Origin: Candidatus Woesearchaeota archaeon
Lineage (GTDB): Archaea; Nanobdellota; Nanobdellia; Woesearchaeales; GW2011-AR9
DNA: 52,255 bases
NCBI GenBank assembly: GCA_018696595.1
Contig: JABHQW010000004.1
Location: 1 to 52,255, forward strand
Direction of reading: 5' to 3'
Below are positions 4,102 to 15,544 of the stretch, piece by piece. Each line of letters starts with the position of its first letter. The stretch's first letter is position 1. The position numbers were made by a program, and so were the translations under genes. A model generated the notes under the pieces. That model did not search any database and was not told where the DNA came from. It worked only from the letters and a program-made list of their open reading frames with translations.

Positions 4102-4184
4102 GTTACAAAGCCACCCTTGCCAATGGAGGCGCATTTTTTTGTTAGGAAAAAAATCTAAGGCGCCGTGCAGGGTGGTTTTGTAAC
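4102..4184. other. 83-nt long hairpin, structured intergenic element C
   Basis: Between two divergent genes, GTTACAAAGCCACCC (4102-4116) pairs with GGGTGGTTTTGTAAC (4170-4184), with one G-U pair. The pairing continues inward as TGC/GCA after a bulged T, then GGCGC (4128-4132) with GCGCC (4160-4164), then ATTTTTTT (4133-4140) with AAAAAAAT (4147-4154). An asymmetric internal loop (CAATGGA opposite GT) separates two stems. The structure is equally good on both strands, so orientation is undecided. It shares the motif GAGG...GCCGTGC with elements at 12706-12768 and 14486-14564. It could be a small RNA, a cruciform or a small mobile remnant; no transposase or target duplication is seen. Confidence 0.55.
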
Positions 4185-4241
4185 AAAACACAATTAGTTT
4201 GACATTGCCCTTTGTAATTAAAGCTTGCCAGAGAGTAAACA

Positions 4242-4250
4242 TTTTTATAA
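4242..4250 (+). promoter_or_regulatory. TATA box of the 4271 gene
   Basis: TTTTTATAA ends 20 nt before the ATG at 4271, so transcription should begin almost at the start codon. No ribosome-binding site precedes that ATG, consistent with a leaderless transcript and deciding the start over the longer open frame. Confidence 0.55.
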
Positions 4251-4270
4251 TCCTTAACTATTCTCTCCAT

Positions 4271-4900
4271 ATGACTGAAGATTTGAGAAACCTTCCGCCT
4301 GAAGAGCGAATTAAGAAACTGAAAGAGTTAGAGAAGAAAAGGAAGAAAGAGATCGAAGAAGCTAAAAAGGGAATTAAAGAAAGTGAAACCGAATTAACTG
4401 AAAGAAGAAACTGGTTCGAGAAAGTTCCAATTCCACAAATTGCTCAAGATGATTTAACTGGATTAGGTAAAGACGCAAAGAAAATTCTTGAAACTCATAA
4501 AGGCGTTAAAGAAGAGAAAAAAGAATCAGTCGATGAAGTTGTTACTGAAAGTGATAAAAAAGAAATAGATTTAGAAGAGTTAGCCCAAGAAAGAGTTGAT
4601 ATCCCTTTTGAATTAATGCAATCTGAATATGCTCAACATCTTAGTCAGAAACCAGTCCAAGAATTATATGGCGAGATGAAAACTTTGCAAGAAAATGTTG
4701 CTGAGAAAGGTTATGTTACAGCAGAAGAACAACGTAAAGCAGAATATCTTATCGCGGGAATGGAAAACAAACTTGAAGATGTTGAAGAAGGATCTTATTC
4801 TTTTACAGAGAAAGCAGCAATGCGAGCAAGTTTAATTCAACAGATGGGTGCTAAAGTTACGGGCATGTACCAAAGTGGGAAATCAATGTATAAAAGTTAG
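4271..4900 (+). CDS. Charged helical protein, unknown function
   Basis: A 209-residue, highly charged, mostly helical protein. Residues 1-60 are rich in Glu/Lys and probably form a coiled coil (ERIKKLKELEKKRKKEIEEA). A conserved-looking middle (VPIPQIAQDDLTGLGKDAKKI) is followed by a linker and a second helical part with VDIPFELMQSEYAQHLSQKP. The start is fixed by the TATA box at 4242-4250. The gene converges on the next one with only two bases between stop codons. I do not recognise the family; the composition suggests a structural or scaffold role, which is speculative. Confidence 0.8.
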   Translation: MTEDLRNLPPEERIKKLKELEKKRKKEIEEAKKGIKESETELTERRNWFEKVPIPQIAQDDLTGLGKDAKKILETHKGVKEEKKESVDEVVTESDKKEIDLEELAQERVDIPFELMQSEYAQHLSQKPVQELYGEMKTLQENVAEKGYVTAEEQRKAEYLIAGMENKLEDVEEGSYSFTEKAAMRASLIQQMGAKVTGMYQSGKSMYKS

Positions 4901-4902
4901 TT

Positions 4903-6357
4903 TTACCAAGCGATCATTCTGTGTGCTTTCTTAAAGTTCCTTTTGATGTTAAAAGCATGGAAGGTGCAATGTCCAGTGATAGCCTTTGTTTCACATTTTT
5001 TAGCAGCTTTAATATGATCTTTAGCTAATTGTGCATCAGTAACAACCCCTGTACTACTTTTCTCTTTAGGTGTATAAAAGTCGCCAAAGAATTTCTCAGT
5101 AAAAGATTTCTTAGCAACTTCTTTCTTAACTTCTTCCTTTTTCTTAGTTCCTTTAGCTTCATCTAAATAAATATAAAGTTGTTCACCTAAAGATTCCATT
5201 GCTTCTTTAACAGAAGTTGAAACATCACCAATAATTGCTATCGTTTCTTCCTCTTTAAGAGCCTTATACGCTTCAACTTGTTTATCTGTCCAAGCATAAA
5301 CCCGAAAGTTCATTTCAAATTTACCGATATGTACCGGACCACGTTGATAACCTTCTTGAACAACTTTCATCTCTGGCCGAGTCCGATAAGTAAACGTCGC
5401 TAAAATACAACCATTAGCTCCACTTTTCCCAACAGGCGTTCTTTTACGAGTAAGAACTTCAATATCCAATAAACTCCCTTCAAAAGCAGAAATCAAATCA
5501 GCAGAACCCATATTCTTGTCATGCATAGTTAATCTGGCAACATGTTTCAAATAAGGTTTAATCCATTGCACATACATTTTAATGATTTGGAAATGTTGGT
5601 TCAAATATTGTAACATGAAAATCCTTCTATTTTTGTGTTCCTCATGGGTTCTCTTTTTCCATTCCATAAACTGTTTTAGGTGTCGTTGTAAAACTCTTAA
5701 CACATTCTTGTTAAAATCTACTTCTAAGCCAGAGATGTGTCGATCTAACTCATTGGTATTAGCAAAGACAGGGGCATCAAAAAAAAGATCAGGCAAAGTA
5801 ACAAACTCTAATTCCCTAGACATTCCAAAAACAGAAGCAGCATTCTTTGCTCCTCCTTGAACTAAATCGATAAATATCCCCTTCAAAGTAATTTCTGAAG
5901 ATTTGCTTCTTTTACCAATACTTTTACCTAATTGAGCAGCAGCTTCGTTATAATAACCTAACCGTTCATCAAGAATTCTTAATTCTCTAACCATCTGAAA
6001 TAATTCTTTAATCATTTTTCCAACTGTGGCCAGAAATTGAGAAACTTTATCTTGCTGTGCACCTAATCTTTGTTGAGTCACACCAAAGAAAGCAGAATTT
6101 TCTGAAGCTGCAAAAGAATCTTCTAATTTCTCAATAATTGGAAAATTCTCTTTAAAATTATCTAAAATCCAAAAATATGGTTCTTCTAAACTTAAATCAT
6201 AAGCCTCCATGGTTTGTTGATAAGACTTTAGAGGTTGAGGAAAACCAGTTGGACCATAATCTTCTTTAATAGTCTCTCTATGTTCTTCTTTATCAAACCC
6301 ATGTTTTTTTAATAGGGCTGAACGTGAACTCAAATCTGTATAATAAAAATTTTCCAT
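4903..6357 (-). CDS. Large soluble protein of unknown function
   Basis: A 484-residue protein without signal peptide or membrane segments. It is rich in helices and aromatic residues (for example FMEWKKRTHEEHKNRRIFM and QHFQIIKMYVQWIKPYLKH). A central region of strands (GCILATFTYRTRPEM, RGPVHIGKFEMNFRVYAWT) is followed by a lysine-rich linker (about 400-445). The C-terminus holds two cysteines and two histidines (CETKAITGHCTFHAF), which might bind metal. The ATG has a GAGGC site 5 nt upstream. It converges tail-to-tail with the preceding charged protein. The family is not recognised; its length and good codon structure make it a confident gene. Confidence 0.8.
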   Translation of the reverse strand: MENFYYTDLSSRSALLKKHGFDKEEHRETIKEDYGPTGFPQPLKSYQQTMEAYDLSLEEPYFWILDNFKENFPIIEKLEDSFAASENSAFFGVTQQRLGAQQDKVSQFLATVGKMIKELFQMVRELRILDERLGYYNEAAAQLGKSIGKRSKSSEITLKGIFIDLVQGGAKNAASVFGMSRELEFVTLPDLFFDAPVFANTNELDRHISGLEVDFNKNVLRVLQRHLKQFMEWKKRTHEEHKNRRIFMLQYLNQHFQIIKMYVQWIKPYLKHVARLTMHDKNMGSADLISAFEGSLLDIEVLTRKRTPVGKSGANGCILATFTYRTRPEMKVVQEGYQRGPVHIGKFEMNFRVYAWTDKQVEAYKALKEEETIAIIGDVSTSVKEAMESLGEQLYIYLDEAKGTKKKEEVKKEVAKKSFTEKFFGDFYTPKEKSSTGVVTDAQLAKDHIKAAKKCETKAITGHCTFHAFNIKRNFKKAHRMIAW

Positions 6358-6405
6358 CTTATGCCTCTTTATTACTTGAATTACTTTATTATTTAATAAG
6401 TTTTC

Positions 6406-7032
6406 TTATTTTGAGCACTTAAAGAACCACAAACCTTCTTTCTCATAAAAATTAACAAAGAAACCAACACTCTCAAGAATAGAAACCCATTTAGAAGAAG
6501 GAAACGAATTAACTTCTTTCTGTTTCTGCCAATCGTTAACTTTATTCTGAGATAAGACAACCATTAAAGTTCCATTTAAAACTCTTTTAATTTCTCTCAA
6601 CAAACCCAAATAATTATTAACATAATTTAAAACAAATACTAAAGTCACAGAATCAAAAGACCCAGCACCAAAAGGCAACTCTTTTTCTAAGTCGCCAACA
6701 ACTTTCTTAACACAATTATCATTCCCTTGCAACATCTTAGCAGAGAAATCGAACCCAACAGATTTAACATAACTATAAGCACCACAACCTAAATCAAGAT
6801 TTTCTCCATTCTCTAAAAACTTAAGTTCTGTTGTAATTGCTTTTCTTTTCTCAGCACTAACTTTATGACCCCACATAAAAGCTTCAGCGTTCCAGAAAGA
6901 AACATTATCAGAAGGCCAACCTTTGGCCCAAGAAACCCCAGAAGCTAATTTCTTCATTTTACCTAAATCTTCTTGACCATATTGTAATTCAATTAAACCA
7001 TTAAAAAATTCAGTCTCAGGATCAAGTTTCAT
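6406..7032 (-). CDS. Class I SAM-dependent methyltransferase
   Basis: A 208-residue protein with the class I methyltransferase core: motif I NLDLGCGAYSYV at about residue 78, an acidic end of the next strand region, motif IV-like SFDSVTLVFVLNYV, and RVLNGTLMVVLS at motif VI. The glycine loop is shorter than the usual GxGxG form but still fits SAM binding. The substrate is unknown. It begins 2 nt after the stop of the upstream MFS gene and is surely co-transcribed with it. The N-terminal 70 residues (FWNAEAFMWGHK) may form a substrate lid. Confidence 0.8.
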   Translation of the reverse strand: MKLDPETEFFNGLIELQYGQEDLGKMKKLASGVSWAKGWPSDNVSFWNAEAFMWGHKVSAEKRKAITTELKFLENGENLDLGCGAYSYVKSVGFDFSAKMLQGNDNCVKKVVGDLEKELPFGAGSFDSVTLVFVLNYVNNYLGLLREIKRVLNGTLMVVLSQNKVNDWQKQKEVNSFPSSKWVSILESVGFFVNFYEKEGLWFFKCSK

Positions 7033-7034
7033 TT

Positions 7035-8162
7035 TTAAAATAGAAGAACTGCTAAGTTAGCAAATCCATTAAGTATTAAGCCGCCAGCTAAATTGTCAAT
7101 CATTAAAACGAACACTAATAATAAAATCCTACCAAGACAAATAAAAACCTCTCTACTAACAAAGTAAGGAGCAGCATGACCACGCGCCTTATCATATTCT
7201 AAAGCCCCAACAGGAGATTCAAAAATACCGAAAGTTAATGCCCCAAAAATAGTTACTGCAAATACGTGCCAAACTTTAACAACTAAAGCACGCAAAATCC
7301 AAGATAATGATTCAAATCCTGCAATCCAACGAATAATTTTTCTTTTATCTATATGATCACTATATTTGCCAACAAATAAAACCAAACCCGCACTAATTGC
7401 AGAAAGTAAAAAACCCACTAACCCCAAACTAAAATAATCATTAAGAATATTAAAGATGAATAGTGGCCAAATAACCCCTGCAGCAATTACATGTGTCCCT
7501 CTTGCAACAAAAAATAAAGAGTTTTCCCAATGTTTTTTATCTAACATTGATCGTAACGAGAAATGATATTTAACATAATCTTCTTTACTTAAGAACAAGA
7601 AGAAAGCAGATAAAAACAATAATAATGAAGCCAAAATAAATACAATGTTAAACCCAACAAATTTAATTAAAAGCCCACCCAATAATGGACCAAACATAGT
7701 AGCAATAATAGTAAAAAATTTTCTTTTACCAAATTCTTCCCCACGATGTTTATGGTCACTGACATGTGCAAAAACTAGGTGCATACCCATCCAATAAAAT
7801 GCTTGTGAAAGCCCTAACATTCCAGCAATCACAAATAAAGGCGTGTTTAATACTGGCAAGAAGTAAAGTAACAGGACAAAAACTAAATAAAATGGGACCC
7901 CCAACAAAACCGAATGTTTCAACCCAGCCTGGGCAGCAAACTTAGCAGCAAAAGGAGTACTAATTGCAAAGATTGCAGCATAGAAAATAAAAAAGTATAA
8001 TGTTTGTTGTAAAGAAAAACCCCTCTCTACATAAAGATATAAAGGAATAAATAACCCAATTAAAGAAATTGCAAAAGATCTAATTGCTGAAGAGATGTAA
8101 ACTTGCGTTAGTTCCTTATGCGGAAAGAATCTCCACCAAAAATGTTCGTTATGATGCGGCAT
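7035..8162 (-). CDS. MFS-type membrane transporter
   Basis: A 375-residue protein with about eleven to twelve hydrophobic helices and a central polar loop (about residues 190-210), as in major facilitator proteins. The loop between helices 4 and 5 contains HVSDHKHRGEEFGKR, which resembles the conserved basic loop that follows helix 4 in many MFS members. The last helix ends flush with the C-terminus (NGFANLAVLLF), so the protein is slightly short for the family (about 400). A GGAGTGA site precedes the ATG. Substrate unknown; co-transcription with a methyltransferase suggests a modified small molecule, which is inference. Confidence 0.75.
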   Translation of the reverse strand: MPHHNEHFWWRFFPHKELTQVYISSAIRSFAISLIGLFIPLYLYVERGFSLQQTLYFFIFYAAIFAISTPFAAKFAAQAGLKHSVLLGVPFYLVFVLLLYFLPVLNTPLFVIAGMLGLSQAFYWMGMHLVFAHVSDHKHRGEEFGKRKFFTIIATMFGPLLGGLLIKFVGFNIVFILASLLLFLSAFFLFLSKEDYVKYHFSLRSMLDKKHWENSLFFVARGTHVIAAGVIWPLFIFNILNDYFSLGLVGFLLSAISAGLVLFVGKYSDHIDKRKIIRWIAGFESLSWILRALVVKVWHVFAVTIFGALTFGIFESPVGALEYDKARGHAAPYFVSREVFICLGRILLLVFVLMIDNLAGGLILNGFANLAVLLF

Positions 8163-8189
8163 AAATTATCACTCCTTTCTTTGATAAAA

Positions 8190-8199
8190 TTTATAAAAG
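8190..8199 (+). promoter_or_regulatory. TATA box of the tRNA-Val gene
   Basis: TTTATAAAAG starts 35 nt and ends 26 nt before the first base of the tRNA, the expected position for archaeal promoters. A second AT-rich stretch follows at 8200-8206. It supports the tRNA gene being expressed despite its odd loops. Confidence 0.5.
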
Positions 8200-8224
8200 A
8201 ATATAAGTCTTTCTATTGTTGATT

Positions 8225-8317
8225 GGGCCCGTGGTCTAGTAGCTATGACGTCCGCCCGACTTTCATTCAATATGATTGGAACGCGGAAGATCGTGAGTGC
8301 GAGTCTCACCGGGCCCA
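8225..8317 (+). tRNA. tRNA-Val (anticodon GAC) with a 20-nt intron
   Basis: The cloverleaf is acceptor GGGCCCG/CGGGCCC (7 bp), D-arm GTC/GAC, anticodon stem TCCGC/GCGGA, variable AGATC, T-arm GTGAG/CTCAC and discriminator A; CCA is not encoded. TGGTCTAG...TATGAC is the usual archaeal tRNA-Val D-arm pattern. After removing the intron the anticodon loop reads CCGACTC with anticodon GAC. Odd features are C33 instead of U33, U37, no G18-G19 pair in the D-loop, and TGCGAGT in the T-loop (G at position 55). It is either a divergent functional tRNA or a decaying copy. The intact stems and perfect splice motif favour function. Confidence 0.85.
8262..8281 (+). other. tRNA intron with bulge-helix-bulge motif
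   Basis: The precursor folds as outer helix 8251-8255/8283-8287, a three-base bulge AAC (8280-8282), a 4-bp central helix CCGA/TTGG (8256-8259 with 8276-8279, one G-T), a three-base bulge CTT (8260-8262), and an inner helix TCAT/ATGA closing a 5-nt loop. This is the strict substrate of archaeal splicing endonuclease. Cutting after the second base of each bulge gives a 20-nt intron after position 37. Confidence 0.75.
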
Positions 8318-8379
8318 TTGTTTCTTTTATTATTTCTTAAACAGTTAGAAATATAAACAATAAAGATTTAATTAGTAAG

Positions 8380-8910
8380 ATGGACAATTATCAACAGCAG
8401 CAAAGTGTGGCGCAACAAGTTCAACCAACACAGACACAACAAATAGAACAGCCACTTTACGTCCTACAGCAAAACAAGAAAAGAGCACTAATTCCAAAGA
8501 TAACAACCCAAGTGGTCTTAGGGGCTATCTTCTATTTAGGAGTTCTGTTAAACATTTCATTGTTAAAACTAAGCGCTAGCAGTGAAACAGTAATAAAATT
8601 GGTAGCATTGATATTATTATTATTAATTGTAATTGTTGGAATTTTTTTGGCATTTCATCAAGCAAATCTTCCTTACAGATTTTATCGTAACAGGATTAAG
8701 TTATACAAAAAAGAAGTTCTTTACGTAAATATAATCAATACAAACCCAAAAATAGATTTCTGGGATAAATTTTTCAAAACATATTCAATAAAAATAGCTA
8801 AAGATAAATATATCCGTAATATCCCACAAACAGTCCAAATAAGTAACTATTTACAACAATTAATCAATTATGCAAAGAACTCTACTTCTTCACAAGGTAA
8901 TTTTCAATAA
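8380..8910 (+). CDS. Two-helix membrane protein with a PH-like C-terminal domain
   Basis: A 176-residue protein. The first 30 residues are a Gln-rich disordered tail, followed by two membrane helices (about 44-64 and 70-91) and a soluble part of about 80 residues. The stretch YRFYRNRIKLYKKEVLYVNI with later IPQTVQISNYLQQLINYAKN resembles bacterial PH-like (bPH2) domains that follow a helical hairpin in small membrane proteins. That link is by pattern only. The gene starts 27 nt after an AT-rich stretch and its 3' end overlaps the convergent permease gene by 29 nt. Confidence 0.65.
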   Translation: MDNYQQQQSVAQQVQPTQTQQIEQPLYVLQQNKKRALIPKITTQVVLGAIFYLGVLLNISLLKLSASSETVIKLVALILLLLIVIVGIFLAFHQANLPYRFYRNRIKLYKKEVLYVNIINTNPKIDFWDKFFKTYSIKIAKDKYIRNIPQTVQISNYLQQLINYAKNSTSSQGNFQ

Positions 8911-9889
8911 CAATAGATGTGAAAGCTAAAATTAGTGGACCAATGATTACACCTAATACTCCAAAGAAATACAAACCACCAAAGATTCCCACTAACATAA
9001 TTAAAGGATGAATCTTAGCAATGTTGCCCATTAGTTTTGGTCGAATAAAGTTATCTAAGGTAGCCACGAAAATCAAACAATATACAAAAAGTAAAATCCC
9101 CTTAACAATTGAACTATTAGAATTATTAAATATTCCTTCAAGAATTAATATTGCTGAAGCAGGGACCCAAACAAAACCAGTCCCCAAATAAGGGATCAAA
9201 GCCAGTAAAGTCATGATTACCCCCCAAAATAAAGGAGAAGAGATACCAAAAATGAAAAACCCTAAAGCCCCTAATGCACCTTGAACTAAAGCAACAACAA
9301 AATAACCAAAAGTAATTCCATGAATAATTCCCCCTAAACGTTCAAGAGTGTTAGCATATCTCTTCTTTTGCAAGCGTAAATATTTCCTAATCTTTTTAAG
9401 TAAGTTTTCTCCTTCTTTCAAAAAGTAAAATAAAGTAAATAAAAACACAATCAAATTAATAATCATTCTTGGCAAACTAGCTAAAACCCCAGAACTTGCA
9501 GAGATTACCCAATTAGTAATTGACTTCACCCCTTCTTGAATCTGATAACTAAATTCAGGGTTCTGAATCGCGGTTTTCATACTTTCACAAATACTATGTT
9601 GACAATTAGAAAACAAGCCCATGGCCAATTTTTGTTTAACAAGGATAAAGATAACATAAGTTTCTTGAATTAAAGATTTAATAAAGAAAAAACCAGGCAG
9701 TATTATTAACAATAAAACAACTAAAGAGAGAATTAAAGAAGACCAAGTAGGACTAATTTTTTTCTCAAGTTTTTGATGTAATGGAAATAAAAGATAAGCC
9801 ACAAAACCCCCAAGAAATAATGCTTTAAGGAAAGGTTGAACTATTAAAAACGAGAGAATGAATAATATCCCCAGTATAATTAATGGCAA
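8882..9889 (-). CDS. AI-2E family (PerM/UPF0118) permease
   Basis: A 335-residue membrane protein with the typical order of this family: three N-terminal helices, a soluble segment with a Ser/Thr/Gln-rich helix, two hydrophobic helices, a basic loop (KKIRKYLRLQKKRYANTLERLG), then a helical block with GVIMTLLALIPYLGTGFVWVP and PKLMGNIAKIHPLIMLVGIFGG. The PYLGTGFVW and HPLIMLVGIFGG motifs are diagnostic. Substrates in this family include signalling molecules and ions. The start given is a TTG, but a strong GAGGTGA site (9913-9919) is correctly spaced only for an ATT codon at 9905-9907 in the same frame, which would add six residues. Confidence 0.85.
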   Translation of the reverse strand: MPLIILGILFILSFLIVQPFLKALFLGGFVAYLLFPLHQKLEKKISPTWSSLILSLVVLLLIILPGFFFIKSLIQETYVIFILVKQKLAMGLFSNCQHSICESMKTAIQNPEFSYQIQEGVKSITNWVISASSGVLASLPRMIINLIVFLFTLFYFLKEGENLLKKIRKYLRLQKKRYANTLERLGGIIHGITFGYFVVALVQGALGALGFFIFGISSPLFWGVIMTLLALIPYLGTGFVWVPASAILILEGIFNNSNSSIVKGILLFVYCLIFVATLDNFIRPKLMGNIAKIHPLIMLVGIFGGLYFFGVLGVIIGPLILAFTSIVIENYLVKK

Positions 9890-9973
9890 ATAATCTCTGT
9901 AATTAATCTAAATCACCTCTTTTATAAGTAAAGACTATTTTAGAATATATAAAGATTTTGATTTCAAGAATTT

Positions 9974-10016
9974 TAAAAAAAGAAAAAAAAAGAAAAAAAT
10001 AAAGCCGTTAGGCTTA
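9974..10016 (-). terminator. S-layer gene terminator
   Basis: On the minus strand AAGCC, loop TAAC, GGCTT (10002-10015) is followed by a long run of T broken only by single C or A bases. The hairpin overlaps the stop codon. It is the expected efficient end for a highly expressed gene. Confidence 0.65.
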
Positions 10017-12533
10017 TTGTTCTGCTTCAACTTCAGGTTCTACAACTTCTTCCATTACTTCTTCAACAACGGTAGGAGCACCAATTGTTGCGTCTGCAGT
10101 GGTTGTACCTTCGATCTCAACTTCATCGCCACTTAACTCAGAGTATCTCTGTGCGATAACCTTACCAGCCAGTCTTGTATCCGCTCCGGAGTAACCTGCA
10201 ACTAACATTGCTACACTCTCTCCATTCTCGAATAACTTAACTCTTGCTTTTCCAGGTGTAAATCCTTCTGTACAGTCTACTGGATTACCAAGTAATTCAG
10301 CAGCCACAGTGTTAACACATGGTCCACCAACAACAATTAAGTTCTGAGCCATTGCATCTGCAACTTCACTATCTAACTTTGTAGCGTCAACAACTTCAAC
10401 AGCTACCATACTTCCGCCACTTGCACTGGATGCAGTTACTGTAGATCCAGAAGTTACGTACAGATTTCCACCAACTTGAGCTTCGGGAACATCAATCTCA
10501 ATTGTTCGGGAACTTCCACTTGGATTTGTTTCCTTAACAAAAGTACCATAATTTTGGTAACCTTTAGTTACAGTGCTCTCTTCAGGGTCACTTACCCAGA
10601 AAGTCATGTTGCCATTCCTTACTTGAGAGTCTACTTCTGTATCAGCTTCAGTAAAACTAAAACTTACGGAAACGTTCTCATCAGTTCCTGTTAAGTCGTC
10701 TTTTCTGTCATCGTCGTCAGTAATTAAGTCAACAAACAATCTTGCATCAGTCATACCAACTCTGTGCCCTGTAGTGGTACCCAAAGTAGCGTTTGTGTTT
10801 TCAATCTTAATCCATCCGTTATTCTTAGTCCTTAACGAAAAACCAACACTAGCATTCCTGGCTGGCAAATAATGGCCTGATGTACTGACGTTACGAATAG
10901 CACCATTCTGAGATGAGGTCAATTGAACTGGATCATTATCAGTTGTTCCTAACGTACCGTTTCTACCATTAAATGTTGTTCCACCTAACTTTATGTCAAA
11001 TGTACCTGTAGATGCAAGAGTTCTAGTCAATGTTTCACCAGTACCTATATTCTTAAAGGTAACCTTTGGATCTGTGTCATCTGTTCCATCTCTACCAGTA
11101 TATTGCAGTAAATAACTTCTTGCATCATTACTTGTAGTTGCTGCAGCTTTATCGTTCAAGAAGAAATATTGGTTCCGGGTAACATTATTATATGTTGCGT
11201 TTAATATTAGTTCCCTTCCAGTTTTTTCTCCTAAGTACAAACCACTTGTGTTAGCGAAGACTAATGGAACTTTAATGGTTGTACCTTCAGAATTCTCAAA
11301 GGTAAGATCATACTCTGAATCTCCACCACTTGGAACAATCGTAATAGGAGATGAATCCTCTGTTGAAAGTCCCTGGAATTCAATGTCCCAATTTTGACCG
11401 AACAATACTTGAGGTTCATCCATTGCACCATCTTCACTTAACTTTTCTCCACTAGCTAAGAAGAAATCGTCGTCAGCAGACATGTTAATGTCAATCTGAT
11501 CTAATTGAAGATCTGATCCAGTTGTAGTAAATGTCCATCGCACACTTGCATCATTGATAGTTTCATCATTCACTTCTAAGTTATTATTGTGATGCAACTT
11601 TAACTTGTTTGCCCCAATAAAGAACTTTGCTGCATGAATACCACCTGCATAGTTTTGGTAAGTAATATCTGTTACGCCAATAACTGTACCATCACTCAAC
11701 TTATCGGTGTCTCCGTCAGCTAAAGCAGTAGTTAATTCACCATTAATTACAAACTTAGCTTTATTTACAGAACTGTACGCAGCAACTGACTGTAATGAAA
11801 CAGTATAATCTACGTCACCAACAAGATAATTTCCTTCATCTCCTTCTTGAAGAGTATCACTTGTAGAACCACCCATCAAAGTCAATTCAGGAGTACCTGC
11901 GGAATCATTCTTTGCTTGAACAATAGTCCATTCTTTTCCAAGAACATTAATGACTTCGTCTTCAAAATCTTCCAGATTTGAGCTGGAGTCAATATCAGAA
12001 TCAAATGTTGAGGTAAAGTCCAATACGTATCGTGCAAACTTTGTTCCAGATGGAATCTTATAGAATGCACCAAGGTTATTGTCTTCATCTTCTTCGTAAG
12101 TCAATCCAATATAACTATCGTCAAAGTGTAAGAACTGTTCATAGTTAGATGTTCCTTTTTCGTTAGTTACTGAACCATCTGCCAATGCACCAAGATCTCC
12201 ATCGGTAATGTATGACTCAACGTCACTAATATCATCGTTGAACTCTAAGATATTTGTGCTAGTTGCAACCAACCAAGTATCTCCTTCTAAAGATGTAGCA
12301 ACTGTTCCACCACTGGAAATTTTCATACTTGCTGCAATATCAGTCATTGCCAAATTGTCTACAGATGCAGCGTTTTCACCAACTACGAAATATCCATCAA
12401 ATACGCCATTATCTACAAACATATTTGGATAGTCGTTTAGGTCTGCTGCTAACGCACCCATTGCTGTTGCCCCTAGCATCAAAGCGCCAGTAAAGACAAC
12501 AGACATGCGTTTCACCATTCTTTTTATTTTCAT
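10014..12533 (-). CDS. S-layer protein
   Basis: A very acidic 839-residue secreted protein that should form the cell-surface lattice. It has a basic N-terminus and a signal peptide ending in GATAMGALAAD. Then comes the S-layer N-domain pattern known from methanococcal proteins (YFVVGENAASVDNLAMTDIAA). Long Thr/Ser/Asp-rich beta regions follow, and a C-terminal domain with VVGGPCVNTVAAELLG and a Cys pair, as in archaeal S-layer C-domains. It ends with a Glu/Val tail. The start is the ATG 12 nt after a perfect GGAGGTG; an upstream GTG in the same frame lies inside that site. It is monocistronic, with its own promoter, upstream palindromes and terminator. Confidence 0.9.
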   Translation of the reverse strand: MKIKRMVKRMSVVFTGALMLGATAMGALAADLNDYPNMFVDNGVFDGYFVVGENAASVDNLAMTDIAASMKISSGGTVATSLEGDTWLVATSTNILEFNDDISDVESYITDGDLGALADGSVTNEKGTSNYEQFLHFDDSYIGLTYEEDEDNNLGAFYKIPSGTKFARYVLDFTSTFDSDIDSSSNLEDFEDEVINVLGKEWTIVQAKNDSAGTPELTLMGGSTSDTLQEGDEGNYLVGDVDYTVSLQSVAAYSSVNKAKFVINGELTTALADGDTDKLSDGTVIGVTDITYQNYAGGIHAAKFFIGANKLKLHHNNNLEVNDETINDASVRWTFTTTGSDLQLDQIDINMSADDDFFLASGEKLSEDGAMDEPQVLFGQNWDIEFQGLSTEDSSPITIVPSGGDSEYDLTFENSEGTTIKVPLVFANTSGLYLGEKTGRELILNATYNNVTRNQYFFLNDKAAATTSNDARSYLLQYTGRDGTDDTDPKVTFKNIGTGETLTRTLASTGTFDIKLGGTTFNGRNGTLGTTDNDPVQLTSSQNGAIRNVSTSGHYLPARNASVGFSLRTKNNGWIKIENTNATLGTTTGHRVGMTDARLFVDLITDDDDRKDDLTGTDENVSVSFSFTEADTEVDSQVRNGNMTFWVSDPEESTVTKGYQNYGTFVKETNPSGSSRTIEIDVPEAQVGGNLYVTSGSTVTASSASGGSMVAVEVVDATKLDSEVADAMAQNLIVVGGPCVNTVAAELLGNPVDCTEGFTPGKARVKLFENGESVAMLVAGYSGADTRLAGKVIAQRYSELSGDEVEIEGTTTADATIGAPTVVEEVMEEVVEPEVEAEQ

Positions 12534-12600
12534 TTTAAAAAAACACACCTCCGTGTTTAATCTCTTTTTGTTATTACCCCATCATCATTCTCTTGCCGTC

Positions 12601-12610
12601 CTATAAAAAT
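12601..12610 (-). promoter_or_regulatory. S-layer TATA box
   Basis: On the minus strand ATTTTTATAG lies about 70 nt before the S-layer ATG. With initiation about 25 nt downstream the leader would be near 45 nt and carry the strong ribosome-binding site. Most other first genes in the window look leaderless, so this leadered, ribosome-site-equipped transcript stands out. Confidence 0.5.
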
Positions 12611-12629
12611 TTCGCAAGAAGTACACATC

Positions 12630-12643
12630 AAGTGGTACCACTT
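12630..12643. promoter_or_regulatory. Candidate operator upstream of the S-layer promoter
   Basis: AAGTGGTACCACTT is a perfect 14-nt palindrome about 20 bp upstream of the TATA box, where archaeal activators usually bind. No protein is known to bind it. Function is inference. Confidence 0.4.
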
Positions 12644-12705
12644 TTCGATTTTACAGACGATATTCTGATGAGATTACAACTAAAAACCCAATTTCGCTTT
12701 ATAAG

Positions 12706-12768
12706 CTTTTCGCAAAAATCGAGGTAGAAAAGACGAGAAAATGCATTAGGGGCCGTGCTGGCGAAAAA
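12706..12768. other. Structured intergenic element D (weak)
   Basis: TTTTCGC (12707-12713) pairs with GCGAAAA (12761-12767). The enclosed sequence has GAGG near the left arm and GCCGTGC (12752-12758) near the right arm, the same arrangement as in the hairpins at 4102-4184 and 14486-14564, but its inner stem is not preserved. It may be a degenerate copy. Confidence 0.3.
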
Positions 12769-12816
12769 TATTGCGAGAAGGAGAAGTCATCATTTCCCAA
12801 TAACAAATATTATCTT

Positions 12817-12844
12817 ATAGAACTAAGTTCTATATTAGTTCTAT
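12817..12844. promoter_or_regulatory. Palindrome plus half-site repeat
   Basis: ATAGAACTAAGTTCTAT (12817-12833) is a perfect 17-nt palindrome, and TAGTTCTAT (12836-12844) repeats its right half. This looks like a regulator binding cluster between glyS and the S-layer promoter, or part of the glyS 3' end. The role is unknown. Confidence 0.35.
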
Positions 12845-12920
12845 TTCCCGTTTATTGTTGGGAGAAAAGTCAAAAATGGTCTTTATTTTGCGGAGAAAGG
12901 ATAATCTTCTAGGCAATCCC

Positions 12921-14432
12921 CTATATCTTAGTAAAATAAAGATTAAATAACTTATTATTCAATTCAGAAATCTTAATTCGCTCTTGTTTTGTCGTATTTC
13001 GATCTCGGATCGTAACACAATCGTCTTTCAAAGTGTCAAAGTCAACAGTTATACAATAGTTCACACCTATTTCATCGGCCCTTGCGTATCTTCGCCCCAC
13101 AGAAGCAGATTCATCATAATAACAAGAGTAACAAGTTTTGATTTGTTGGTAAACTTCTTTGGCTTTATTAGTAACTTCTTCCTTATTTTTTACTAATGGT
13201 AAAACAGTACAAAAGAAAGGAGAAACTTTTGGAGAAAAGTTTAGAACAGTAATTGCTTTGCCCTTTTCATCAGTTCTTGTTTTATATGCATCAAACATTA
13301 ATGCTAAGAAAGCTCGCCCTACACCCTGAGAAGGTTCTGCAGCAACCCTTGGGATGATTTTTTCTTGAGTTTGTTCGTTAAAGTATTCTAAATTCTTTCC
13401 TGAATGTTCTTTATGTTGAGTTAAATCAAATTGTCCCCGGTCGGCTAAACCATAAATTTCTTTCCAGCCAAAAGGAAAATTATAATCTAAATCAAAACAA
13501 GCTTTAGCATAATGAGCAAGTTCTTCTTTTGTGTGTTCTCTTACTCTTAGGTTTTCGGGCTTCATGCCCAAGTCTTCAGTAAACCAAAGGAATTCTTGCA
13601 CTAACCAATAAGCCTGCCATTTGTTAATTTGTAAATTTAATAATTCTTGAACAGTGATTTTTGTTTGTTCTTCTCCCTTTTCTTGATTTTCTGCAGAGTA
13701 AACATTTAGTTCTAAATCTAAGTATGGTTTTAATAAAGGACAATCGTCTGCCTTGCCCGGATGAGTAAAGAATTCAATCTCCATTTGTTCAAATTCTCTC
13801 ACACGGAATAAAAATTCTCTTGGTGAAATTTCGTTACGGAAAGCTTTTCCAGTTTGAGCAATTCCAAAAGGAAGTTTTACTCTTGTTGTATCTATAACAT
13901 TTTTAAAATTAGTAAAAATAATTTGGGCAGTTTCCCCTCTTAGATATGCTAAGTTTTCGCCAGTTTCTTTTGGGCCAACATAAGTTTTAAACATTAGGTT
14001 AAATTGCGAGCATTCACCAAACTCTTCAGATTGGCATTTAGGACATTTAAGTCCTTTCTCTTTTATTGTTGCGTTAAAATATTCTAAAGATTTTCCTTCT
14101 ACATTTAGGTTATGTTGATCTTCAATTAAATGGTCTGCCCTATGTCTAGCGTTGCACTTTCTACATTCTATTAATACATCCGCAAAAGAATCTATGTGAC
14201 CAGAAGCTTTCCAAACATCTTTTGAAGAAACGATTGAACCGTCAATCCCCACAACATCATCTCTGTCTTGTACAAACCGTTTCCACCAAGTTTGTTTGAT
14301 TTTGTTGTTTACTTCGACTCCAAGAGGACCGAAGTCAAAGAATCCAGATAATCCACCATATATTTCAGAGTTAGGAAATACGAACCCTTTCTTTTTACAG
14401 AAAGTTGCCATTTCTTCAATGTTTAGAGTCAT
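12921..14432 (-). CDS. glyS: Glycyl-tRNA synthetase
   Basis: A 503-residue class II aminoacyl-tRNA synthetase of the dimeric archaeal/eukaryal type that charges tRNA-Gly. The N-terminus has the typical GLSGFFDFGPLGVEVNNKIKQ. Zinc-ribbon cysteines occur in ECRKCNARH and CPKC. Motif 2 is FRNEISPREFLFRVREFEQME, and motif 3 is PSQGVGRAFLALMFDAY. The C-terminal anticodon-binding domain includes PLVKN and YDESASVGRRYARADEIG. It is somewhat shorter than most archaeal forms (about 570). The ATG follows a TATA-like CTTAATAAAC by about 30 nt without a ribosome-binding site, so a leaderless mRNA is likely. A structured element lies just upstream (14486-14564). Confidence 0.95.
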   Translation of the reverse strand: MTLNIEEMATFCKKKGFVFPNSEIYGGLSGFFDFGPLGVEVNNKIKQTWWKRFVQDRDDVVGIDGSIVSSKDVWKASGHIDSFADVLIECRKCNARHRADHLIEDQHNLNVEGKSLEYFNATIKEKGLKCPKCQSEEFGECSQFNLMFKTYVGPKETGENLAYLRGETAQIIFTNFKNVIDTTRVKLPFGIAQTGKAFRNEISPREFLFRVREFEQMEIEFFTHPGKADDCPLLKPYLDLELNVYSAENQEKGEEQTKITVQELLNLQINKWQAYWLVQEFLWFTEDLGMKPENLRVREHTKEELAHYAKACFDLDYNFPFGWKEIYGLADRGQFDLTQHKEHSGKNLEYFNEQTQEKIIPRVAAEPSQGVGRAFLALMFDAYKTRTDEKGKAITVLNFSPKVSPFFCTVLPLVKNKEEVTNKAKEVYQQIKTCYSCYYDESASVGRRYARADEIGVNYCITVDFDTLKDDCVTIRDRNTTKQERIKISELNNKLFNLYFTKI

Positions 14433-14485
14433 TTTAGTTTGGATTAGTTTATTGTTTATTAAGTTTTTTGTAAAAGCATCTTATT

Positions 14486-14564
14486 TTTTGAGAGCTGCGC
14501 CAAAAGAGGCACACGAGGAAGACGCAGCCTTACTCGTAATTGGTGCCGTGCCCTGCTCTCAAAA
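14486..14564. ncRNA. Structured intergenic element A, candidate RNA
   Basis: A 79-nt element closed by TTTTGAGAGC (14486-14495) and GCTCTCAAAA (14555-14564), a perfect 10-bp pairing. Inside, GGCAC (14508-14512) pairs with GTGCC (14543-14547) and ACGAG (14513-14517) with CTCGT (14533-14537). It follows the tandem-Lrp gene directly and precedes the glyS promoter. Its ends match element B at 19691-19821 almost exactly (TTTTGAGAGC, A or T, GCGCCAA ... TGCTCTCAAAATA). The strand is undecided. It does not match the conserved cores of SRP RNA or RNase P RNA. It may be a small RNA family, a terminator type or a small repeat. Confidence 0.5.
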
Positions 14565-14569
14565 TAAAT

Positions 14570-15544
14570 TCAGTTCTTTTGTAATAAACTTTCAGGAAAA
14601 TAAGAATACTTGTAAATCTTCAATGCTTTATAGTAAAAATAGGATCTAATCTTTCCAGGGAATAAGGATTTGATTTCATTAATCAATTTGTAAAAATCTT
14701 CTTGAGATTTTAATTCGCAGTCAAACTCGAAATCAGAACCGCCAACCGCAATATCCTGGTAAATCACATTAGGATGTTGAATTATGAATTGATTTAAAGA
14801 GGGGATGATGTTAATATCTTCTAATTCCAAATCAACTTTATAATATTCGTAACCCAATTTCTTTTGATCTATAAGTAACTTGTATGCAACAATAACTTTA
14901 TTTTTTTCTAAATTCCTAAGTTTGTATTTTACTCCAGTTGCAGTCATTTTAAGCTTTTTAGCTAATTCCAAAAGAGTAATTCTTGCATTTTCTGAGATTT
15001 CCTGCAATAATTGTAAATCTTTTTCATCAACAGAATATTCTTGAACACTTCCTGTAGACAAAACAGAATCACTATACTTCTTTTTTTCAACCAAATAATT
15101 CCTGTTGTAATGATGGTATTTAGTAAGTATAGAAAAACCACTATTAATAACATAATGACGATACTTTTTCAAAAAATTTTCATAAACTTTTTGATAAACA
15201 TTTAAATCTTTAACTAAAAATCCTAAAGCAAGATCAAATTTACCATCTGTCCGATAAATAGTAAAAACATCTTTCTCTTTTAAAAAATAAGCAACAATTT
15301 CTTCATCCAATTCGGTAGTAGTATTCTTTAACTCTAGATACAATCTTATCGCTTGATAACCTAACTTATTAAAATCAATTAACGCAAAATAACCACTAAT
15401 GATTTTATTTTTTTCTAATTGTTTTATTCGATAATTAACTACGTCCCGGCTTAATTTAGTTTTCTTAGCAATACTATTAATTGATTGTCTGCTATTCTGG
15501 TCAAGTTCGAAGAGGATTTGTAAGTCTTTTTTGTCTAATTTCAC
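14570..15544 (-). CDS. Tandem-module Lrp/AsnC-type transcriptional regulator
   Basis: A 324-residue protein made of two copies of the Lrp plan. Copy one has a helix-turn-helix (residues 1-60, LDKKDLQILFELDQNSRQSI...) and an effector-like part (about 60-150). Copy two has a second helix-turn-helix beginning at about 170 (VDEKDLQLLQEISENARITL) with its own C-terminal part. Single Lrp proteins are about 150 residues, so this is an internal duplication or fusion. The start is a GTG about 28 nt from a TATA box (ATTTATAAAC), which suggests leaderless expression. It is divergent from the racemase gene, a possible target. Amino-acid sensing is family knowledge, not shown here. Confidence 0.85.
   Translation of the reverse strand: MKLDKKDLQILFELDQNSRQSINSIAKKTKLSRDVVNYRIKQLEKNKIISGYFALIDFNKLGYQAIRLYLELKNTTTELDEEIVAYFLKEKDVFTIYRTDGKFDLALGFLVKDLNVYQKVYENFLKKYRHYVINSGFSILTKYHHYNRNYLVEKKKYSDSVLSTGSVQEYSVDEKDLQLLQEISENARITLLELAKKLKMTATGVKYKLRNLEKNKVIVAYKLLIDQKKLGYEYYKVDLELEDINIIPSLNQFIIQHPNVIYQDIAVGGSDFEFDCELKSQEDFYKLINEIKSLFPGKIRSYFYYKALKIYKYSYFPESLLQKN

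Follow-up and report, generated by a model that had tools for sequence, protein, structure and literature searches.

A conserved folded core shared by short, probably mobile intergenic elements with different ends in Woesearchaeota

The window analysed here, a stretch of 52,255 nucleotides from contig JABHQW010000004.1 of a Candidatus Woesearchaeota archaeon, holds two hairpin elements on the plus strand that are real and related, as the preliminary description had claimed. The first (copy 1, 4102–4184) carries a conserved core at 4119–4168 on the same strand, delimited by alignment and pair counts, inside a variable outer stem (GTTACAAAGCCACCCT / AGGGTGGTTTTGTAAC). In this core, GC (4119–4120) and the junction CAATGGA (4121–4127) lead into a 5-bp helix (GGCGC 4128–4132 / GCGCC 4160–4164), with a 5-nt bulge, CTAAG, at 4155–4159 and the closing GT (4165–4166) and GC (4167–4168) on the 3' side. 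The second, element A, is a 103-bp insertion (14474–14576, plus strand) with a glycyl-tRNA synthetase gene on one side and a gene for an HTH (AsnC/Lrp-type) regulator on the other. Its core (14499–14551, plus strand) repeats the same plan, with GC at 14499–14500, junction CAAAAGA at 14501–14507, helix GGCAC 14508–14512 / GTGCC 14543–14547, bulge AATTG at 14538–14542, GT at 14548–14549 and GC at 14550–14551. Both elements can be written as GC-CAAxxGA-GGCxC ... GxGCC-GT-GC and both contain the asymmetric 7-nt/GT internal loop noticed earlier, while a conserved bulge of 4-5 nt, placed above the 5-bp helix on its 3' side, had been missed. Copy 1 folds far better than its shuffles (z = −4.7) and scores 70.1 bits (E 7.5e-21) against the family covariance model; for element A the hairpin at 14486–14564 gives z = −4.2 and the core 66.4 bits (E 1.3e-19).

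A third hairpin at 12706–12768 (plus strand), formerly counted as a weaker member, is not one. Shuffled versions of it fold just as well (z = +0.70), the family covariance model finds no match there even with filters switched off and a threshold of E ≤ 10, and it contains GAGG..GCCGTGC without a stem, a pattern expected by chance about once per genome in first-order random sequence of the own genome's size; it is excluded on these grounds, and the motif there is a chance resemblance. This hairpin lies upstream of a gene for an S-layer-like protein (PF05124, 10017–12548). A search of the window against Rfam 15 at gathering score returned tRNA only, and that tRNA, at 8225–8317 (49 bits, 93 nt against a 71-position model), was missed by ARAGORN at default and probably contains an intron. 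For the cores, Rfam 15 gave no match at E ≤ 1, one lncRNA match falling outside the element, which agrees with the earlier remark that neither a known guide nor an SRP core fits.

The 103 inserted bases of element A are flanked on both sides by the same 8 bp, TTTTGTAA, at 14466–14473 and 14577–14584, and the insertion is absent from the orthologous site of the sister species G002 in the same genus, where the empty site reads TTTTTTGTAG across the joint. Beside the orthologous glycyl-tRNA synthetase gene, the core was found in none of 12 relatives. At copy 1, terminal repeats and a target duplication were looked for and none was detected; it is probably an old or trimmed copy. In G001 and G002, compared for an empty site of copy 1, the downstream gene is a different one. 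Across the family, many cores sit centrally in longer quasi-palindromes with inverted ends and exact duplications. Under a strict rule, which asks for terminal repeats matching at 12/16 or better together with an exact duplication of 8 or 9 bp, 37 of the 107 copies with enough flank qualify, compared with 0 in five trials of mismatched-flank controls; in the remaining 70, copy 1 among them, neither feature is clear by this rule. In genome G122 at least 12 closely similar copies occupy different sites, with exact 8-bp duplications in 11 of the 12 read and a 7/8 match in the other, and near-identical copies with different duplications occur in G034 and G016.

The elements are 89–246 bp long, multi-copy and without coding capacity. 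Terminal inverted repeats with fixed-length duplications, a non-coding, multi-copy and intergenic character below 300 bp, and an empty site in a relative are the marks of MITEs, and we assign the family to MITEs with a conserved folded core at a probability of about 0.88. The inverted ends, target duplications, empty site and an IS5-like relative for one end class favour MITEs over classical ncRNA genes. Of the three intergenic RNA hairpins originally proposed, the conserved and compensated fold thus stands for two, while the count does not, and their identity is better described as MITE insertions with inverted ends and target duplications.

The genome-wide search suggested earlier as a check yielded many further copies in the own genome and its relatives. 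The pattern GAGG-N15..44-GCCGTGC has 18 matches at 17 places in the own genome, against 3 (2+1) for a reversed-pattern control, and the covariance model gives 24 matches at E < 1e-8 in these 1.19 Mb. The family is patchily distributed, being present in 14 of 60 genomes, the own genome included, all within its own family, and the number of matches per relative ranges from 0 in one same-genus genome up to about 27 in other genera, a range in which copies at contig ends may have been counted twice. Several identical copies lie exactly at the ends of L074, L075, L076, L077 and other contigs; assemblies are broken by these repeats, so copy numbers in draft genomes are uncertain. Wider samples added four further families, bringing the range to at least five families of one Woesearchaeota order, with no matches elsewhere in the phylum sample. 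Named records with matches are all Woesearchaeota, 'Nanoarchaeota' or archaeal MAGs, with the exception of one weak, GC-rich bacterial match. Carriage by viruses was rejected, as six pattern matches on viral contigs all went unconfirmed by the covariance model.

Copies are otherwise intergenic, only 4 of the 80 classified overlapping a called ORF; a core-bearing copy at L154:3247–3326 (core-strand coordinates) lies within a 254-aa ORF, where an intragenic MITE fusion is possible. Of the intergenic copies, 29 lie in divergent and 8 in convergent spaces, with 26 in sense and 13 in antisense ones, and a terminator or 3'-UTR role is not favoured on that account. The orientation relative to tandem genes is weakly biased (26 sense versus 13 antisense, p = 0.053), which we take as a weak hint of an RNA role and no proof.

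In a 15-copy alignment the consensus consists of a variable outer stem, a G-C and a C-G pair, the junction CAANNGA opposite GU, the helix GGYRC/GYRCC, a one-sided bulge (4–5 nt, 3' side) and an apical stem that is again variable. The covariation test, also proposed at the outset, found double-sided changes at 15 of 20 pairs; the observed measures were reached by none of 500 shuffles, and pairing fell from 91% to 41–54% when partners were slid by 1–3 columns. The MAFFT alignment behind this test was made without structure, although the tested structure was itself drawn from the same sequences. Counts were extended to 95 distinct copies and to 37 representatives (<75% identity), in alignments that were fitted to the model and hence lean towards it. 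The central helix pair, whose compensatory change from A-T to G-C had been noticed between copy 1 and element A, is A-U in 47 and G-C in 47 of the 95 copies, and the adjoining G-C pair has become C-G in 2 copies with its partner changed too. Two copies have GAGCC in place of GAGG, each with a compensating change in the partner, and a Shine-Dalgarno role of GGAGG was dropped for this reason.

The unpaired GU is retained in 94 of the 95 copies and the junction ends in GA throughout, whereas the bulge keeps its length (4–5 nt in 89/95) while its sequence varies (CUAAG, CUCGG, AAUUG, GAUGU and others). The junction of some copies is itself folded into a small third arm whose changes are matched (CCUGAC-GUA-GUCGA, CCUGUC-GGA-GACGA, CCUGAC-CUCA-GUCGA). 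Among the 37 representatives, core identity is mostly 80–100%, and stems and loops go down to 30–60%. Wobble G-U exceeds A-C by 25 to 7 (p = 0.002) in this set, an excess which the covariance model itself may favour; it points to a single folded strand and is compatible with RNA and single-stranded DNA alike. Given covarying helices and a GU kept in 94/95 copies despite ends and loops that have diverged beyond recognition, the core has probably been selected as a folded strand, whether RNA or single-stranded DNA. Elements with two cores were also seen (L045, L058, L082, L046, L070), one core per strand and nested, the outer stem of the inner core being the apical stem of the outer one; these modules appear to have been built into each other.

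The same core sits within MITEs of several end types, namely GGCTTCATCCGGAATA, GGTAATGTCAAGTTA, GGCTAATATGAAACCC, GGCGCTGTCCAGAAAG, GTACGTATTAAGTTGC and GGCACAATTCAA. An autonomous IS5-like element with matching ends was found for the GGCKCTGTCCAGAA class only, beside which GGTAATGTCAAGTT, GTACGTATTAAGTT and GGCTAATATGAAAC are further end types. This element, in G016, is 934 bp long, with ends GGCTCTGTCCAGAA, a duplication TAATCTAT and a DDE transposase that exceeds the cut-off for DDE_Tnp_1 (PF01609); its best NCBIfam models are IS5, with IS5_2 at E 2.4e-30 but below the curated cut-off. One MITE of G016 has ends GGCGCTGTCCAGAAAG, and the arm GGCGCTGTCCAGAAAG-N9-TGTATACTGG matches the IS 5' end GGCTCTGTCCAGAAAG-N9-TGTATACTGA, so the arms of this MITE class derive from that IS end; the 5' end GGCTCTGTCCAGAAAG-N9-TGTATACTG is seen again as the arms of one MITE class. 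The MITEs are presumably moved in trans by IS5-like transposases, and the ISH1- and IS903-like subgroups of IS5, which make duplications of 8 and 9 bp, would fit as drivers. An IS1595 transposase (PF12762) was rejected as driver, its sole match lying on a Bacteroidetes-like contig in an element without matching ends; this bacterial-looking contig (L092, G010:C51) is likely contamination of that genome. In the IS5-like element (L222:620–1553 in G016, also L255 and L256), the region of the transposase start lies within a stem of the 5' leader, GTGTATACTGA ... TCAGTATACAC, whose paired bases differ in more distant copies (L257, L259); this stem looks like a structure limiting translation of the transposase.

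No core was found in or near the IS copies of the G016 type, and inheritance of the core from the autonomous element was rejected for that reason. For GGTAATGTCAAGTT, the one close pair of ends beyond the core-bearing copies examined belongs to a core-less MITE, and its ends are related to a core-bearing class. A core-less MITE at L085:2457–2604 (G035), with ends GGTGCTGTCAG.. / ..AACTTGACATTACC and the 9-bp duplication GAAAACTAG, adjoins a core-bearing MITE with related ends. The core-less IS and the core-less MITE with related ends indicate that the core is dispensable for movement.

Prokaryotic MITEs have been reviewed (PMC10969869). With IS5-family MITEs the elements share terminal inverted repeats, 8- or 9-bp duplications, a non-coding and intergenic nature, a stable stem-loop and, within one genome, an autonomous IS that has the same ends; the difference is a strictly conserved folded core across end types, which is a feature of the Woesearchaeota family. 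HUH (RAYT) enzymes mobilise REP elements, which form GTAG hairpins, whereas this family has a DDE (IS5-like) transposase, terminal repeats of DDE type with target duplications and no GTAG foot in the copies read. What it has in common with REPIN/REP palindromes (PMC3116915) is that both are dispersed, mobile, hairpin-forming, multi-copy and intergenic. The nearest parallel for a common interior is BOX of Streptococcus, which the consulted part of PMC3049150 presents as short modular intergenic repeats with stem-loop transcripts, and in which S. suis surrounds the same inner boxB module with two different sets of end modules, much as the Woesearchaeota core lies within differing ends. BOX differs in sequence and domain of life and in the junction fold, whose covariation is a feature of the Woesearchaeota core; in that same part of the source BOX is not reported to have terminal repeats with clear empty sites, whereas the ends and 8/9-bp duplications here are clear.

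Known folded motifs were compared as well. With kink-turns and k-junctions (PMC5061560, PMC10573300) the core shares an asymmetric loop, a GA on the longer strand beside a G-C helix and a loop replaceable by a third helix. It differs in that a kink-turn needs GA on the nonbulged strand, with tandem G-A/A-G pairs, where this core has GU in 94/95 copies, and in that the extra helix of a k-junction lies on the nonbulged strand and here on the longer (bulge-side) one. Outer R boxes (RYYYAAC ... GTTRRRY) should be conserved in integron attC sites, and here no paired part is less conserved than the outer stem. The bulge-helix-bulge motif of the archaeal tRNA endonuclease has two 3-nt bulges on opposite strands with 4 bp between them, unlike the 7-nt/2-nt loop and 4-5-nt bulge found 5 bp apart in this core. 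Described Rfam 15 families, including self-cleaving ribozymes, SRP and H/ACA and C/D guides, gave no covariance-model match. Publications on MITEs in DPANN are few, none of those searched names MITEs in Woesearchaeota, and no publication describing the core family was found in the literature outside subscription journals.

Transposases would act in trans on the ends, copying or cutting elements that cannot move alone, and the apex of the palindrome holds the conserved folded core common to MITEs with different ends. In read-through transcripts the core would be present as a putative RNA, which a host RNA-binding protein or nuclease may recognise in its folded form, and such recognition could keep the insertion from affecting neighbouring genes too strongly, or control processing. 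Weighing the evidence together, we consider this action as RNA the most likely route, at roughly even odds, and it is favoured because the core is dispensable for transposition. A model for how it might work is provided by Correia/NEMIS of Neisseria, MITEs that give rise to folded transcripts cleaved by host RNase III (PMC2229807, PMC10969869), although their sequence is unrelated to the Woesearchaeota core. More tentatively, the core may be a functional folded module, RNA or single-stranded, passing between Woesearchaeota transposons with unrelated ends; on that account a putative factor, the host's or the element's own, might recognise it, and the core could possibly be a structured passenger selected across MITE families.

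The main alternative, and the next after the transcript role, is that a transposase or host protein recognises the fold as single-stranded DNA during replication or transposition and thereby raises mobility, as happens when hairpins of IS200/IS605-type and REP elements are recognised as a folded strand. Two observations fit this proposal: G-T mismatches outnumber A-C ones, which implies that one strand folds, and the double-core elements can present a core on either strand. It nevertheless appears doubtful, since duplications of 8 or 9 bp at the ends, together with a DDE transposase, indicate DDE transposition of double-stranded DNA rather than HUH single-strand chemistry, and since the core is missing from the autonomous element as well as from a MITE with related ends. 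A passive core would have descended from one ancestral palindromic element whose ends were altered following different transposases. Template-switch repair of imperfect palindromes is established and can produce matched changes without function, and all copies are quasi-palindromes with long arms, so that covariation could reflect such repair of the arms. We regard this as unlikely: such repair erases asymmetric loops, but nearly all copies have retained the 7/2 loop and the one-sided 4-5-nt bulge, bulge length is kept in 89/95 while bulge sequence varies, the unpaired GU survives in 94/95 though ends and loops diverge completely, and third arms covary within the junction. A stand-alone family of host non-coding RNA genes spread by duplication would account for a conserved covarying fold, intergenic position and copies without detectable terminal repeats. 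It is very improbable and already largely refuted by the target duplications and empty site, together with terminal repeats and a copy number that varies between 0 and about 27 in related genomes, one same-genus genome having none.

In practical terms, these repeats break assemblies and could pass for host ncRNA genes. A core that remains folded and unchanged while its surroundings are replaced suggests a common selectable job in several mobile elements. The family offers a concrete way to test whether mobile hairpins are under selection via RNA, via single-stranded DNA or not at all.
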